Assembly (NCBI RefSeq): GCF_010993745.1
Contig: NZ_WOTN01000002.1
Coordinates: 682,001-746,000, forward strand
Length of the DNA: 64,000 bases
Reading direction: 5' to 3'
Origin: Fodinicola acaciae
Lineage (GTDB): Bacteria; Actinomycetota; Actinomycetes; Mycobacteriales; HKI-0501
Below, piece by piece: positions 2,333 to 39,023 of this stretch (position 1 is the stretch's first letter; every line of letters begins with the position of its first letter). Under the pieces are notes generated by a model that did not search any database, was not told where the DNA came from, and saw nothing but the letters and a program-made list of their open reading frames with translations. A program made the translations under genes and the position numbers.

Positions 2333-3724
2333 CTAGTCGGTCCGCAGCGTCGACGCGAGCAGGCTCACGGCCTCGGCCATCGATCTTTCGGTGACGTTGG
2401 CGTAACTCAGGACGAAACCGCTCCTGCCGTCCGTGTCGCGGCGATAGCGTACGAGGGGAGTCACCGCGAGGCCGCGGGACAGCGCTCTGGCCGCGATCGC
2501 GTATTCGTCGAGCTGCCTGGCAAACTCGACCACCAGGTGCAGGCCGGCGGCGACGCCGCGTACGGTGGCGCCCGGCAGCTGCCGGGCGATTTCGGCGACC
2601 AGAGTGTCGCGCCGGCGCCGATAGGTGGTCCAGGTGCGCCGCAGGTGGCGGTCGTACGCGCCGGACTCGACCAGCCGGGCGAAGGCCAGCTGCTCCAATG
2701 TGGACGGTCGGCTGCCGTCGCGCAGCAGCCGGTCTGTCACCGCCGCCGCGATGGTGGCCGGCGCGACCAGCCAGCCGATCCTGATGGCCGGCGACAGTGT
2801 TTTGCTGACAGAGCCGACATAACAGACCCGACCTGGATCCTCCGGCTGGAGCGCGCCGACCGGTTTGTTGTCGAAGCGGTATTGCGCGTCGTAGTCGTCC
2901 TCGATCACCAGGGCGCCGGTCTTCCTGGCCCAGGCGACAATGTCGTCGCGGCGTCGGCGAGAAAGCACGACACCTTGCGGAAACTGATGCGCGGGTGACA
3001 CGATCACCGCCGCTTCGTCGCCGAGTTTGCGCACTCTGAGGCCGTTTTCGTCGACCGGCACCGGATGGGTCGCGAGGCCGGCCTCCGTCACCGCCGCCGG
3101 CAGCCGCGGCCAGCCGGGATCCTCGATGGCGACAGTTTTGGCTCCATTGTTGGCAAGCACGTGCGAGAGCAACGACACGGCATGGGTGACCCCGGACGTG
3201 ACGACCAACTCGGCCGGCCCGACACGGACGCCGCGCGTACGGGCCAGATATCCGGCCAGCAGGTGCCGCAGCTGCGGACTTCCGGCCGGATCGCTGGACC
3301 GTAACGTGCCGCGCGGTGTCCCCGACAGAGCCTCGCCCATCGCGGTCAACCAGGCGGCCCGCGGAAAAGCCGTCAACTCCGGCACTCCTGGCCGCAGGTC
3401 GAAACGCGGCTCGGTCCTGACCGGTGTTCGCGGCGGTGCGGCGGCGTTTCCGGTCGCCGCGACGCGCGTGCCAGATCCGACGGTCGCGGTCAGCACACCT
3501 TCGGCCAGCAGGACCTGATATGCCTCCGTCACGACCCACCGCGAACACGCCAGGTCGGCAGCGAGCGTACGCGTGGCGGGCAGCCGCGCACCGGCCGGCA
3601 GCCGGGATTCCGTTATGGCGCCACGAATCGCTTCCGCCAGCCGGAGGTGCAGCGGCCGCCTGTCCCGCGCGATCCGCAGAAAAACCTCGGTCGGCCCCGC
3701 CGAAAGCCGTACGTCGCGAGTCAG
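2333..3724 (-). CDS. MocR-type GntR/aminotransferase regulator, apparent CTG start
   Basis: A MocR/PdxR-type regulator: N-terminal GntR winged helix (about residues 15-80) joined to a type I aminotransferase-like domain that binds PLP. The PLP lysine is in SVSKTLSP (K308), and DDYDAQYR lies earlier in the same domain. The first ATG/GTG/TTG in frame is the GTG at 3532, but starting there would cut through the winged helix: the upstream codons still read LHLRLAEAIRGAI and LPATRTLAADLACSR, typical GntR sequence. No canonical start exists in that stretch. CTG at 3724-3722, preceded by GAGG 6 nt upstream, gives a full 463-residue MocR. It begins 11 nt after the stop of the ferritin-like gene, so it may be read from the same mRNA. 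Confidence 0.8.
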   Translation of the reverse strand: MTRDVRLSAGPTEVFLRIARDRRPLHLRLAEAIRGAITESRLPAGARLPATRTLAADLACSRWVVTEAYQVLLAEGVLTATVGSGTRVAATGNAAAPPRTPVRTEPRFDLRPGVPELTAFPRAAWLTAMGEALSGTPRGTLRSSDPAGSPQLRHLLAGYLARTRGVRVGPAELVVTSGVTHAVSLLSHVLANNGAKTVAIEDPGWPRLPAAVTEAGLATHPVPVDENGLRVRKLGDEAAVIVSPAHQFPQGVVLSRRRRDDIVAWARKTGALVIEDDYDAQYRFDNKPVGALQPEDPGRVCYVGSVSKTLSPAIRIGWLVAPATIAAAVTDRLLRDGSRPSTLEQLAFARLVESGAYDRHLRRTWTTYRRRRDTLVAEIARQLPGATVRGVAAGLHLVVEFARQLDEYAIAARALSRGLAVTPLVRYRRDTDGRSGFVLSYANVTERSMAEAVSLLASTLRTD

Positions 3725-10877: not shown

Positions 10878-11324
10878 ATGGCAAGCATTGCTAATGACGA
10901 GCTCACCGAACGGTCGGGGGTGGTCCGCTCGACCGGTCTGCTGGTGTTGCGCGTCATGGTTGGCTTGACATTGCTCGTCCATGGCATCCCGAAGCTCGGC
11001 CGGCCCGGCGCGTTCATCGAGACGGTCGCCGGTCTCGGCGTACCGCTGCCGACGGTGGCCGGCATCCTGCAGATGGCCGGCGAAGTCGGGCTCGGCGTGG
11101 CGCTGCTGGTCGGCGTGCTGAGCCGCGTGGCCGGCGTACTGGTCGCCGTGATGATGGCGTTGACCTGGGCCATCGTGCACGCGCCGGAGGGTTTGCTCAG
11201 CAAGAGCGGCATTTCCGGTGAGAGCGCGGTGCTGCTGGGGCTCGGTGGCGTGGTGATCGCGCTGCTCGGTGCCGGGGCGTACAGCGGTGACGCGTTGTTG
11301 GCGAAGCTCCGCAAGAAGGCCTGA
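10878..11324 (+). CDS. DoxX-family membrane protein
   Basis: A 148-residue protein with four hydrophobic helices. LVLRVMVGLTLLVHGIPKLG is the DoxX first-helix signature, followed by VPLPTVAGILQMAGEVGLG and ALLVGVLSRVAGVLVAVMM. DoxX proteins sit in the membrane and are linked to redox and oxidative-stress systems. ATG at 10878 has GGAGG 5 nt upstream. A separate promoter probably lies in the 65-nt gap after the MFS gene. It is not obviously co-transcribed with exonuclease III, which has its own leaderless -10 box. Confidence 0.85.
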   Translation: MASIANDELTERSGVVRSTGLLVLRVMVGLTLLVHGIPKLGRPGAFIETVAGLGVPLPTVAGILQMAGEVGLGVALLVGVLSRVAGVLVAVMMALTWAIVHAPEGLLSKSGISGESAVLLGLGGVVIALLGAGAYSGDALLAKLRKKA

Positions 11325-36314: not shown

Positions 36315-36839
36315 ATGGACGACCTGCTCGCTGTGGTGGCGATCGCCTTGGCCGCCGTTCTTATCGTCGCCGGAGCCTCGAAACTGGCCGCTCCGGGCCA
36401 ACTGGCCGACAGTGCGCGCGCGGTGCTCGGCATGAACGCTGAACCGGTTTTGCTCGCGCGTGCCGCCGGTGCGGTCGAGCTCGCCGCCGCCGTACTGGTT
36501 TCGTTGCCTGGCCTGGCATTGCCGGGCGCTGTGCTCGGGATGCTCGTTGGACTGGGGATCGCCGGCTGGGTCGCCCTGGCGCTGCGCCGCCGGGTGACCG
36601 CGTCGTGCGGCTGTTTCGGTGGTAACTCTAGGAAACCGCTGGGGATGTCCAACCTGCTCGCCGGCCTCGGCATCGCCGCCGGATTCGGTCTGCTGATCGC
36701 GGCCGGTGGATTTGTGCCGAGCTGGGGTGCGGCCGCGCAGTTGGCCGCCGCCGCGACCTGCGCCTTGTCGACCGTACTCGTCATGCGGTTCGGCGATTTC
36801 TATCCGCTGCTGAAGAAGGGCTTGGGTGCTGGCCAATGA
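36315..36839 (+). CDS. MauE-family redox membrane protein
   Basis: A 174-residue protein with four to five membrane helices and the MauE/DoxX-type signature: LIVAGASKLAAP in helix 1 and the loop ASCGCFGGNSRKPLG (about 96-110) with a C-G-C pair. MauE is needed for disulfide formation and maturation of the methylamine dehydrogenase light chain and works with MauD. ATG at 36315 has GGGAG 7 nt upstream. It opens an operon of six genes and overlaps the thioredoxin-like gene by ATGA. Confidence 0.88.
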   Translation: MDDLLAVVAIALAAVLIVAGASKLAAPGQLADSARAVLGMNAEPVLLARAAGAVELAAAVLVSLPGLALPGAVLGMLVGLGIAGWVALALRRRVTASCGCFGGNSRKPLGMSNLLAGLGIAAGFGLLIAAGGFVPSWGAAAQLAAAATCALSTVLVMRFGDFYPLLKKGLGAGQ

Positions 36840-37438
36840 CCGTCTTCGAGATCATTGTCGTCGTCGCGCTTTTGTTGCTCGTGGTCGGCATGATCGGCAT
36901 GTTCGCCATGATGGGCGAGCTCAACGCGAGGGTCAGTACGGCGGACCTGCCGGAGGACCCGACCGCGCTGCCGATCGACGTACGCACCGGTGCCATGCCG
37001 GCGCGGTGGCCTGCCGAGCTCGCACCGCTGGCGGCGGAGGACATCGCGGTTTTGCTTGTCGTGAGCCCACTTTGCGCCGCGTGCGCGCGGATTGCGCCGA
37101 CCGTCGGCACGCACCAGGCGGCCCGGCGCGACGACATCGGATTCGGCGTCGTCGTTTCCTGCTCCAGCACGGAAAACGGCGCGGACTTCGTACGGACGCA
37201 CCGGCTGGACGCCGGCTCGCCGGTGGCTCTGGACGTCGATGGACGGTGGCTGACCGACGAGTTCGGCGTCTCGATGAGTCCGGTGTTGATGGTCTTCCAG
37301 CAGGGCCGTCTGGTCTCGGCTTCCACCATCGCCTCACTGGCAGCGGTGGATGTGGTTGTCCGGCAACTCCACGAGAAGGAGGAACAGGATGGCACGTCAG
37401 ACACCGAAATCGCAGCTGCTTCGCACCCGCACGGGTAG
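36836..37438 (+). CDS. membrane-anchored thioredoxin-like protein (MauD-like), CAAC
   Basis: A 200-residue protein with one N-terminal membrane helix (4-26) and an extracytoplasmic thioredoxin fold. The redox motif is C80-A-A-C83 in SPLCAACARIAP; a cis-Pro region SMSPVLMVF lies later. It also has Cys in VVSCSST. With MauE upstream it resembles the MauE-MauD pair that forms disulfides in a secreted Cys-rich protein. Its 3' end overlaps the next gene by 50 nt in another frame, an unusually long same-strand overlap. Confidence 0.85.
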   Translation: MTVFEIIVVVALLLLVVGMIGMFAMMGELNARVSTADLPEDPTALPIDVRTGAMPARWPAELAPLAAEDIAVLLVVSPLCAACARIAPTVGTHQAARRDDIGFGVVVSCSSTENGADFVRTHRLDAGSPVALDVDGRWLTDEFGVSMSPVLMVFQQGRLVSASTIASLAAVDVVVRQLHEKEEQDGTSDTEIAAASHPHG

Positions 37439-37703
37439 GCGGCGGTTCATGGCCTGGTTCGGCGCCGCCGGGCTCGGTACGGCGACCGCCGTGTTCGCGC
37501 AGAGCACACCGGCCGCGGCGGCCGGACAATGCCTGTGCTGCAATCTCGCGCACTGTCCGGCGAACACCAGCATGAGCTATTGCCAGGCACACCAGAACTA
37601 CGAGTGGTCGTGCCGGGTGTGCAGCGGCGGCGCATGCGTCACGTGTTTGTGCTGCGAGGCAAACGGAAACTCGCTGTCCGCACTCGACTGCCGGCCGACC
37701 TGA
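37389..37703 (+). CDS. Tat-exported 12-cysteine mini-protein
   Basis: A 104-residue protein with a twin-arginine signal (TGRRRFM at 15-21, hydrophobic region to about 37, AAAA at 42-45) and a mature part of about 59 residues with twelve cysteines: 48, 50, 51, 56, 65, 75, 78, 83, 86, 88, 89, 101. Twelve cysteines and the MauE/MauD neighbours recall the methylamine dehydrogenase light chain, but this is half as long and has a single Trp (W73) in the mature part, so the tryptophan-tryptophylquinone cofactor cannot form. It is likely a small six-disulfide or metal-binding secreted protein. ATG at 37389 has GAAGGAGG upstream. Confidence 0.75.
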   Translation: MARQTPKSQLLRTRTGRRRFMAWFGAAGLGTATAVFAQSTPAAAAGQCLCCNLAHCPANTSMSYCQAHQNYEWSCRVCSGGACVTCLCCEANGNSLSALDCRPT

Positions 37704-37718: not shown

Positions 37719-37787
37719 TTGTCCGTCTGGCTGACGCTCGCGGTGCTCGGCGGGCTGCTCCAGCTGTTCAGCCCTTGAGGCCGCGCG
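37719..37787 (+). other. in-frame N-terminal extension ending in TGA (SP-TGA in place of SPC)
   Basis: TTG at 37719 with GGTGAG 5 nt upstream opens LSVWLTLAVLGGLLQLFSP, a membrane helix, then TGA at 37776-37778, then GRA and the ATG of the next gene in the same frame. The shape G-L-L-x-x-F-S-P-[C] is the first-helix redox motif of CcdA/DsbD-type proteins, so TGA stands exactly where Cys is expected. It may be a nonsense mutation (TGC or TGT to TGA), a selenocysteine codon, a sequencing error, or chance. Confidence 0.55.
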
Positions 37788-38366
37788 ATGGTCGGCGTGT
37801 CCGACCCGGAGCTGAAAGCGGACCGGACCAACGGGGTCCGGCTGCTCGGCGGCCTGACCGCCGGCTATCTGACGGCCACCGTGTTGATCGCCATTCCGCT
37901 GATCGGAGTCGCCGCGCTGTCGCAGCAGCTGGTGGATCCGCGGATCACCCGGATCGCCGTCCTTCTGGTCATGCTCGGGCTCGGCATCGCCGACCTGGCC
38001 GGACGTACGCCCTACCGGGATCGGCAGGTGCCGCAACGATTCGCGCGTGAGCTGGGCCCGCTGCCGCGCGGCCTGCTCTGGGGTTTCGACCTCGCTTTGC
38101 TGGTGACGACACAAAAAACCGCGTCGGTGCTGTGGGCCGCACTGCTCGGCGCCGTCTTCGTCGGCCCGGTGACGGCCGTACCGTCGGTCCTGCTGGCCGC
38201 CGGCGTGGTCTATCTGGGCGGTGTCAGCGTGCTGAGTTTCGCCGGAGCGGGGCGGATAACCGGCCTCTGGTTCGGCGTGACGCTGCTGCCGTGGCTCCAG
38301 CGAGGCGCCGGTCTGTCGCTGGTCGCGTTGGCCGCGGCGGGACTGATCATGGAGGCGTTCGGATGA
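37788..38366 (+). CDS. CcdA-like polytopic membrane protein (possibly lacking its first helix)
   Basis: From ATG 37788 the protein has 192 residues and about five membrane helices: GLTAGYLTATVLIAIPLIGV, RIAVLLVMLGLGIADL, LLVTTQKTASVLWAALLGAVF, VPSVLLAAGVVYLGGVSVL and a last one near the C-terminus. A preceding helix with SP-TGA lies in the same frame, so the intact form is probably about 215 residues. Size, helix layout and the MauE/thioredoxin neighbours suggest a CcdA-type carrier of electrons across the membrane. As written it has no Cys at all, so it could not relay thiols unless the TGA is read through as Sec or Cys. Confidence 0.6.
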   Translation: MVGVSDPELKADRTNGVRLLGGLTAGYLTATVLIAIPLIGVAALSQQLVDPRITRIAVLLVMLGLGIADLAGRTPYRDRQVPQRFARELGPLPRGLLWGFDLALLVTTQKTASVLWAALLGAVFVGPVTAVPSVLLAAGVVYLGGVSVLSFAGAGRITGLWFGVTLLPWLQRGAGLSLVALAAAGLIMEAFG

Positions 38367-38776
38367 GCGGCTTGCGGCGCGACGACGGACCGATCGCGCA
38401 ACCCGGAGGCGTGGTCGTCGTCACGCTGTTCGACTGCCGGACCCTGCGCAACGTCCTGCGGGTCTGGTGGGCTCATCAGTGGGTGAAACCGGCGGTCCGC
38501 CGGCTCGCGCCGGCGTTTCTCGGCGTACGCCTCTACATCGACTGGCCGGCCCGTCGCGTACGTAGTGTTTCCCTGTGGTCGGACGGAAAAGGCCTGTTCG
38601 CGATGGGGGAGGTCGGCGAGCACATCCGGGCGGCGCACCTGGTGTCCGGTTGGGGTGTGGCGACCAGTGGCGGGGTCTTCGGCTATGCCGGCGACTGGCG
38701 CGAGGTCATGTTCGGCCCCGGCTATCGCACCAACTCTCCGCTCGTCGACGACATGACTGTTCAAGCGAAGGAGTAG
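38363..38776 (+). CDS. protein of unknown function in the MauE/Cys-rich operon
   Basis: A 137-residue protein I do not recognise. It has GGVVVVTLFDC near the N-terminus, then an amphipathic WWAHQWVKPAVRRLAPAFLG, a basic RLYIDWPARRVRSVSLWSD and a Gly-rich SGWGVATSGGVFGYAGDW. There is no signal peptide and no clear membrane helix. ATG at 38363 overlaps the membrane-protein stop by 4 nt, so it belongs to the operon. It may be a cytoplasmic partner of that protein. Confidence 0.65.
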   Translation: MSGLRRDDGPIAQPGGVVVVTLFDCRTLRNVLRVWWAHQWVKPAVRRLAPAFLGVRLYIDWPARRVRSVSLWSDGKGLFAMGEVGEHIRAAHLVSGWGVATSGGVFGYAGDWREVMFGPGYRTNSPLVDDMTVQAKE

Positions 38777-38780
38777 TGAC

Positions 38781-39023
38781 ATGCCGATTCCAACAGACCG
38801 CGGTTACGTGCTGATCCGGCAGAATCCGGAAGGCACCGCCCAGGTCGAGATCTACAACGGCCGTCCGGTGAGCGGCTCCAAGCCGTACGCGGTGCACAGC
38901 CGCGTCGGCAAGGTGCTCAGGAAGACCAGCGTCGGCTTTTCGCCGTACCAGGGCGGGGAGCTGTCCCGGCAGCCGATCGAGGTGACCTGGTCGCAGGACG
39001 ACCAGGCCGTCTATCTGATCTGA
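38781..39023 (+). CDS. small beta-rich protein of unknown function
   Basis: An 80-residue protein with alternating strands (GYVLIRQNPEGTAQVEIYNG, VTWSQDDQAVYLI) and no membrane helix or signal. I do not recognise it. ATG at 38781 has AAGGAG 9 nt upstream, 4 nt after the previous stop, so it is the last gene of the operon. A large perfect hairpin follows 9 nt after its stop. Confidence 0.65.
   Translation: MPIPTDRGYVLIRQNPEGTAQVEIYNGRPVSGSKPYAVHSRVGKVLRKTSVGFSPYQGGELSRQPIEVTWSQDDQAVYLI

Follow-up and report, generated by a model that had tools for sequence, protein, structure and literature searches.

How should a gene be read when a stop codon stands inside it, at the position where a redox cysteine is expected? 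This question is raised by a gene in a 64,000-nucleotide stretch of Fodinicola acaciae DNA (RefSeq assembly GCF_010993745.1, contig NZ_WOTN01000002.1, positions 682,001 to 746,000), which we refer to as the window and within which positions are counted from its first letter. On the forward strand, a TTG at 37719 opens 19 codons ending in LQLFSP, a TGA follows at 37776-37778, and the same frame then stays open from 37779 for 195 codons until a TGA stop at 38364-38366. A preliminary description of the window had pointed out this TTG-opened segment, the TGA, the continuation in the same frame, and the lack of cysteine in the rest of the protein—all of which can be read directly from the sequence, the frame at 37719-38366 holding no Cys codon. 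Comparison of homologous loci leads us to assign 37719-38366 to a CcdA-like membrane protein of 215 residues containing selenocysteine (Sec) at position 20; judged on sequence evidence, the TGA at 37776-37778 is almost certainly read as Sec.

The same column holds TGA in 31 of 34 distinct homologous loci and TGC (Cys) in the remaining three, all of them distant homologues; these are the cysteine counterparts that the preliminary description had proposed to look for. Searching the window's own genome with the TGA read through finds two additional TGA copies of the gene. A first search of 60 other genomes gave matches in three, of which G001 (three copies) and G057 were retained, each match with one TGA in the same column, and an alignment-based search of 394 genomes of the class (its own included) added G124, G203, and, weakly, G258. 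A scan of a genome contig collection, using an alignment that starts after the TGA, gave 19 loci with TGA at the column in 19 of 19, a result with some bias towards the Sec form because one of the two search peptides overlaps the hairpin-encoding region. These 19 loci come from Fodinicola, Streptomyces, Yinghuangia, Flexivirga, Actinomadura, Nonomuraea, Allorhizocola, Pedococcus, and several actinobacterial metagenome assemblies. Searching 396 genomes of the phylum gave three further TGA loci (G563, G540, G106) and the three TGC loci (G585, G808, G801), whose context is TWSPCGxSM; one more TGA locus, L118, lies on a linear plasmid of Streptomyces anthocyanicus. The family is rare, with matches in 4 of the 394 class genomes and 8 of the 396 phylum genomes (own genome included; one of the eight, G812, was judged spurious).

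Some choices define these counts. Two matches were left out throughout as spurious by eye: L007 in G004 (E 2e-12, a fragment covering residues 108-181 within an 11,089-codon frame) and L090 in G812 (72 codons, E 1.6e-5). L005 and L018 are the same locus, as are L013 and L035, and each was counted once. Two alignments in which L010 and L089, respectively, stand in a wrong frame contributed to no count. The weak homologue L015 (G258) was counted as TGA; without it there are 30 TGA loci, and selA is found in 24 of 25 genomes instead of the count given below. The TGA of L015, at 1477-1479, is flanked differently (GST-U-SHNSAF); a CxxC protein and a Cys-rich one are encoded next to it, and this locus possibly represents a further Sec subfamily.

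The codon that precedes the TGA is strongly biased. This proline codon (37773-37775 in the window) is CCT in 21 of the 25 loci having Pro there, whereas further along the same reading frames CCT makes up 19 of 256 Pro codons (Fisher p 5e-17, with relatedness ignored). When four later loci are included the count is 23 of 29, and it is 0 of 3 in the Cys homologues. The bias may be due to the UGA context or to an SD-like CTTGAGG.

A predicted SECIS hairpin lies just downstream, inside the coding sequence at 37790-37806 on the forward strand, where GGTCGG (37790-37795) and CCGACC (37801-37806) form a 6-bp stem around the 5-nt loop CGTGT (37796-37800). Counted from the TGA, the arms of the stem are +12 to +17 and +23 to +28, and all six pairs form in 23 of 27 loci—a set that does not contain L118, L084, L086, or L089—with GU at loop positions 2-3 in every one of the 23 stem-forming loci. 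The bSECIS rules given in the accessible part of a 2026 review are a loop of 3-9 nt, a stem of 4-16 bp, a G in the first two loop positions, a spacer of 16-37 nt, and an MFE of at most -7.5 kcal/mol (PMC13188914). By that text the window element, with its loop of 5, stem of 6, cGU loop, and spacer of 17, conforms to the published rules (PMC13188914); the MFE of the 40-nt fold containing the stem is -13.1. The preliminary description had drawn a 5-bp stem at 37782-37799 and doubted that its spacing suited a SECIS. Its stem can be drawn, but the conserved register is instead 37790-37806, and the doubt over spacing rested on that other stem, whereas the conserved hairpin has a 17-nt spacer.

Covariation supports this hairpin, and synonymous-codon usage points to constraint on it beyond the needs of the protein. 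In the covariation set of 23 loci (22 distinct rows) all 132 cells pair and three of the six pairs show changes on both sides, counts that favour the structure in that they used only stem-forming loci. The covariation score of 0.297 compares with 0.218 (sd 0.021) in shuffled alignments, none of 500 shuffles attaining it; for two other covariation measures 50 of the 500 did so, and shifting the pairing partners lowers all of them. When codons were redrawn with the proteins held fixed, 1.9 (sd 1.3) of 27 loci were expected to have all six pairs and 23 were observed, a contrast that is inflated by the relatedness of the loci; the single-locus chance of the hairpin over seven distinct peptides runs from 0.6% to 12%. 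Folding energy was dropped as a line of evidence, as the z-scores are ordinary (+0.59 for the window, and +0.61 to -1.84 across the 11 loci folded).

The hairpin is not uniform across the family. Its standard register is absent from the divergent copies L009, L011, L014, and L015, the remaining four of the 27 loci; outside that set, L118 has 6 of 6 pairs, and L084, L086, and L089 have 2 to 4. An alternative hairpin is common to L014, L086, and L089, with +9 to +14 pairing with +19 to +24 (6 of 6 pairs, 14-nt spacer), and the same positions give 2, 5, and 4 of 6 pairs in the three Cys homologues. No agreed hairpin element emerged for L009, L011, and L084. These observations hint that divergent Sec-type copies have atypical SECIS elements.

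The machinery for decoding UGA as Sec is encoded by the window's genome. The preliminary description reported no sel genes within the window; such genes do exist, outside it and on the same contig. A search for the four that it had named found them all clustered, with selB, selA, a tRNA-Sec gene (TCA anticodon), and selD within one 4.3-kb stretch—selA, selB, and selD were called over NCBIfam cut-offs, and tRNA-Sec (selC) by ARAGORN. Across the family, 25 of 26 genomes of the TGA type have a selA match above cut-off, versus none of the three Cys-type genomes, which are listed as 96 to 100% complete. The tally began as 24 of 25 genome entries, became 22 of 23 genomes once duplicates were removed (G001/G443 and G124/G460 have identical selA places, and each pair was counted once), and reached 25 of 26 with the addition of G106, G540, and G563; the one TGA-type genome lacking a selA match, G451 (L026), is a metagenome assembly. 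The background is 121 of 394 genomes in the class sample, some of these being partial matches of uncertain meaning, and under that background the chance of at least 25 of 26 would be 3e-12, a figure that treats the genomes as independent although they are not. Of the three readings listed in the preliminary description, Sec is the one supported, by conservation of the TGA, the Cys counterpart, the constraint on the SECIS, and the association with selA. Elsewhere in the window's genome, a formate-dehydrogenase-like gene (L067, G000:C1:978679-979407) also carries one in-frame TGA and is probably a Sec enzyme.

What kind of protein would carry this Sec? Nine positions are invariant in 19 aligned rows (L14, S18, P19, U20, G21, M24, G26, V27, and P30), a second conserved block surrounds WGxDLxLL, and Sec20 is the only residue conserved as a redox residue. 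The AlphaFold2 model (pLDDT 90.5, pTM 0.83) places helices at 2-16 and 19-34 with a break at SPU. Searches of Pfam, NCBIfam, and PDB sequences gave no match over cut-off for the Sec protein. Its best Foldseek match in the PDB is CcdA (5vkv), a weak one (E 0.11, probability 0.82) in a search with nothing at E 0.001. The 50 entries listed by VIA-align are mostly transporters, at Z values of 6.4 or less that fall inside the noise range; CcdA is not among the entries listed, an absence that carries no weight either way.

The CcdA link drawn in the preliminary description holds at the profile level but not in Pfam: comparison by hhalign with 14 CcdA-like sequences taken from related genomes yields a probability of 93 over 181 columns (E 3.4e-7, for a single comparison), whereas neither the Sec protein nor six further homologues match DsbD_TM (PF02683). 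The same comparison places Sec on the cysteine of SPC, the first CcdA Cys (TM1), where the preliminary description had placed the TGA. By these alignments the Sec protein is a distant, shortened relative of CcdA, with Sec at the first Cys and the second Cys gone.

The gene stands in an operon on the forward strand. Upstream are a MauE-family membrane protein with a CGCF motif (36315-36839; PF07291, 54.2 bits against a cut-off of 27), and a putative thioredoxin-like protein with an N-terminal hydrophobic segment and a CAAC motif (36836-37438), whose similarity is weak: 16.1 bits to PF00085, below cut-off, and 10.5 bits to MauD (TIGR02661) against a cut-off of 188.6. Next is a small Cys-rich protein with a twin-arginine (Tat-like) signal (37389-37703), in which eight Cys and YxWxC are invariant across 19 aligned rows; its gene neighbourhood makes it a candidate substrate of the Sec protein. 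No significant match to it was found in Pfam or PDB sequences, the methylamine dehydrogenase light chain included, and its structure model (pLDDT 50.7) was set aside as too poor to search. Downstream are ORF5 (38363-38776, 137 aa), which is conserved in the operon (tblastn in 18 of the 19 loci L018-L036, L036 being cut off; before the Sec gene in L022), and ORF6 (38781-39023, 80 aa), which is less widely conserved (tblastn in L019, L021, L032, L033, L035, and L006). All 19 loci L018-L036 have the CxxC gene. The Cys-rich gene was recovered from all 19 by motif and from 17 by tblastn, and MauE from 17 by one or the other method, the exceptions being L028 and L036.

Four loci (L118, L019, L020, and L021) have selC, on the opposite strand, and selD directly after the operon. 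L019 and L020 continue with a complete selA (together with selB); in L118 the selA runs off the end of the stretch, and in L021 the match to it is short. The remaining 16 of 20 loci scanned, a number that does not include the short L089, gave no tRNA-Sec. L118 (NZ_CP109276.1, 155661-162257) is the linear plasmid copy from S. anthocyanicus, with the operon, selC, selD, and a partial selA, and it suggests that the Sec trait is able to move with a plasmid-borne operon.

In the window's genome as a whole, 13 MauE places are listed. One is a further match in the window at 10938-11171 (G000:C2:692938-693171; 30.2 bits, over the Pfam cut-off), and at L079 and L080 (G000:C2, around 281801-284296) two MauE matches lie near two similar Cys-rich frames (FCCGAxWGPC...). 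The latter pair suggests that the combination of MauE with a Cys-rich protein recurs more widely in this genome.

We propose that the organism's SelA-SelB-SelC-SelD system would translate the UGA at 37776-37778 as Sec, with insertion directed by the SECIS hairpin at 37790-37806 within the coding sequence, yielding a membrane protein in which Sec would be the only conserved redox residue. This protein may pass redox equivalents, via selenenyl-sulfide intermediates, to or from its operon partners (the CxxC protein, MauE, or both), and disulfides would thereby be formed or corrected in the exported Cys-rich protein that the operon also encodes. The mechanism is modelled on the operon partners and on a speculation, in the available part of the source, that MauE aids disulfide formation in methylamine dehydrogenase, where the light chain is concerned (PMC7794033). 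As a full explanation—a CcdA-like selenoprotein with its own SECIS and SelABCD, and a disulfide role with its operon partners—we regard this as likely; for the disulfide role taken by itself, gene context and sequence leave us evenly balanced.

One alternative accepts the selenoprotein and gives it another task, namely metal or metalloid binding or transport instead of disulfide chemistry. Several Sec-bearing transport proteins have been predicted, most of them tied to heavy-metal or metalloid resistance according to the part of the review available (PMC13188914), and a single conserved redox residue would suit such a role, as would the transporters that come first in VIA-align, at Z values (up to 6.4) within the noise range. 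The operon, however, consists of thiol-redox genes and a Cys-rich exported protein, and the best Foldseek match and the tested profile match are both to CcdA, in a profile comparison that covered CcdA alone. We consider a metal role unlikely.

The serious rival to the Sec reading takes the UGA as a true stop: the 19 residues would be a leader peptide and the main protein would be re-initiated at the ATG at 37788, behind a weak ribosome site. That site, TGAGG, does lie 8 nt upstream of the ATG in the window; an ATG stands at codon +4 in 27 of the 31 TGA loci, and NCBI annotates the S. anthocyanicus plasmid copy from it (3070 in L118, where the TGA is at 3058). However, the ATG is missing in the other four TGA loci, and the three Cys homologues, which are read straight through, also have Met at +4—a Met in this position thus needs no role as a start. 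The 19 upstream residues are themselves conserved and align with CcdA helix 1, and homologues that begin at the ATG without an upstream helix, which the preliminary description had named as telling against its reading, were not seen among the loci inspected. Re-initiation would also predict neither the constraint on the hairpin nor the association with selA, and we judge it very improbable; a mixed form, with both readthrough and re-initiated products made, is possible. The weakest readings are the recent nonsense mutation silencing the gene and the sequencing error entertained in the preliminary description: the frame is indeed interrupted by what the standard code treats as an ordinary stop, but TGA in the same column of 31 of 34 distinct loci from many genomes, conservation of both flanks, a covarying hairpin, and the lack of any selA match in the genomes of the Cys homologues make either explanation exceedingly improbable.

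The Sec gene apparently represents an uncatalogued selenoprotein family. A CcdA-like SPUG protein was not found among the 119 prokaryotic selenoprotein families listed in the accessible portion of the 2026 review, where the nearest entry is TsoB (PMC13188914), and NCBIfam of June 2026 gave no match over cut-off. Neither CcdA nor MauE appears in the portion available of the deep-Sep paper's main text (PMC12013277), and neither CcdA nor DsbD in those of Zhang 2006 (PMC1794560) and the Sargasso paper (PMC1088965). No link of MauE, CcdA, or DoxX to Sec in actinobacteria was found in searches of open-licence PubMed Central papers, which could miss a family published elsewhere or named differently.

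If the Sec reading is correct, the known selenoproteins gain a family whose members standard annotation can cut short, as is seen in the one annotated copy. Whereas CcdA relays through two cysteines, the transmembrane thiol carrier in which Sec would sit retains one redox residue, and the system would allow a direct test of what selenium contributes to disulfide formation in exported proteins. Free-living actinobacteria would also gain a possible reason, besides formate dehydrogenase, to retain the Sec code. More tentatively still, and with less than even confidence, we suggest a selenium-dependent actinobacterial cassette for disulfide maturation, in which a CcdA-like carrier with one intramembrane selenol in place of a Cys pair works with MauE and the CxxC protein to mature a secreted Cys-rich (possibly RiPP-like) protein. 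The Sec code may even be carried for the sake of this cassette, since selC and selD (and selA) adjoin the operon in four loci, once on a plasmid.

Several known systems resemble parts of this arrangement. In the methylamine dehydrogenase (mau) system and in decRiPPter families, as in the Sec operon, MauE stands beside a thioredoxin-like gene and a Cys-rich product; the available part of the decRiPPter paper describes candidate RiPP families with MauE, one of them also with MauD, each MauE cluster having a predicted precursor of at least 8 Cys (PMC7794033). That part mentions no Sec protein in the MauE/MauD families, unlike the operon described here (PMC7794033). The operon also differs from the mau system, in that its thioredoxin-like protein is far below the MauD cut-off and no light-chain similarity was found in its Cys-rich protein. 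TsoB, a selenoprotein resembling a rhodanese/DsbD fusion, is likewise DsbD-like in part; as described in the accessible text it has two Sec in a UxxxxU motif and a rhodanese domain, whereas the Sec protein has one Sec in SPUG and no rhodanese domain was found in it (PMC13188914). With bacterial selenoproteins generally, the gene shares its UGA, a bSECIS, selABCD, and Cys homologues whose genomes gave no selA match. The Sec protein also resembles the transmembrane domain of CcdA/DsbD (PF02683)—likewise a polytopic membrane protein of similar size, with a helix 1 ending in SP-Cys/Sec. CcdA has redox Cys in helices 1 and 4; the Sec protein lacks the second of these (WxPC), and the first is replaced by Sec in 31 of the 34 Sec-family loci.
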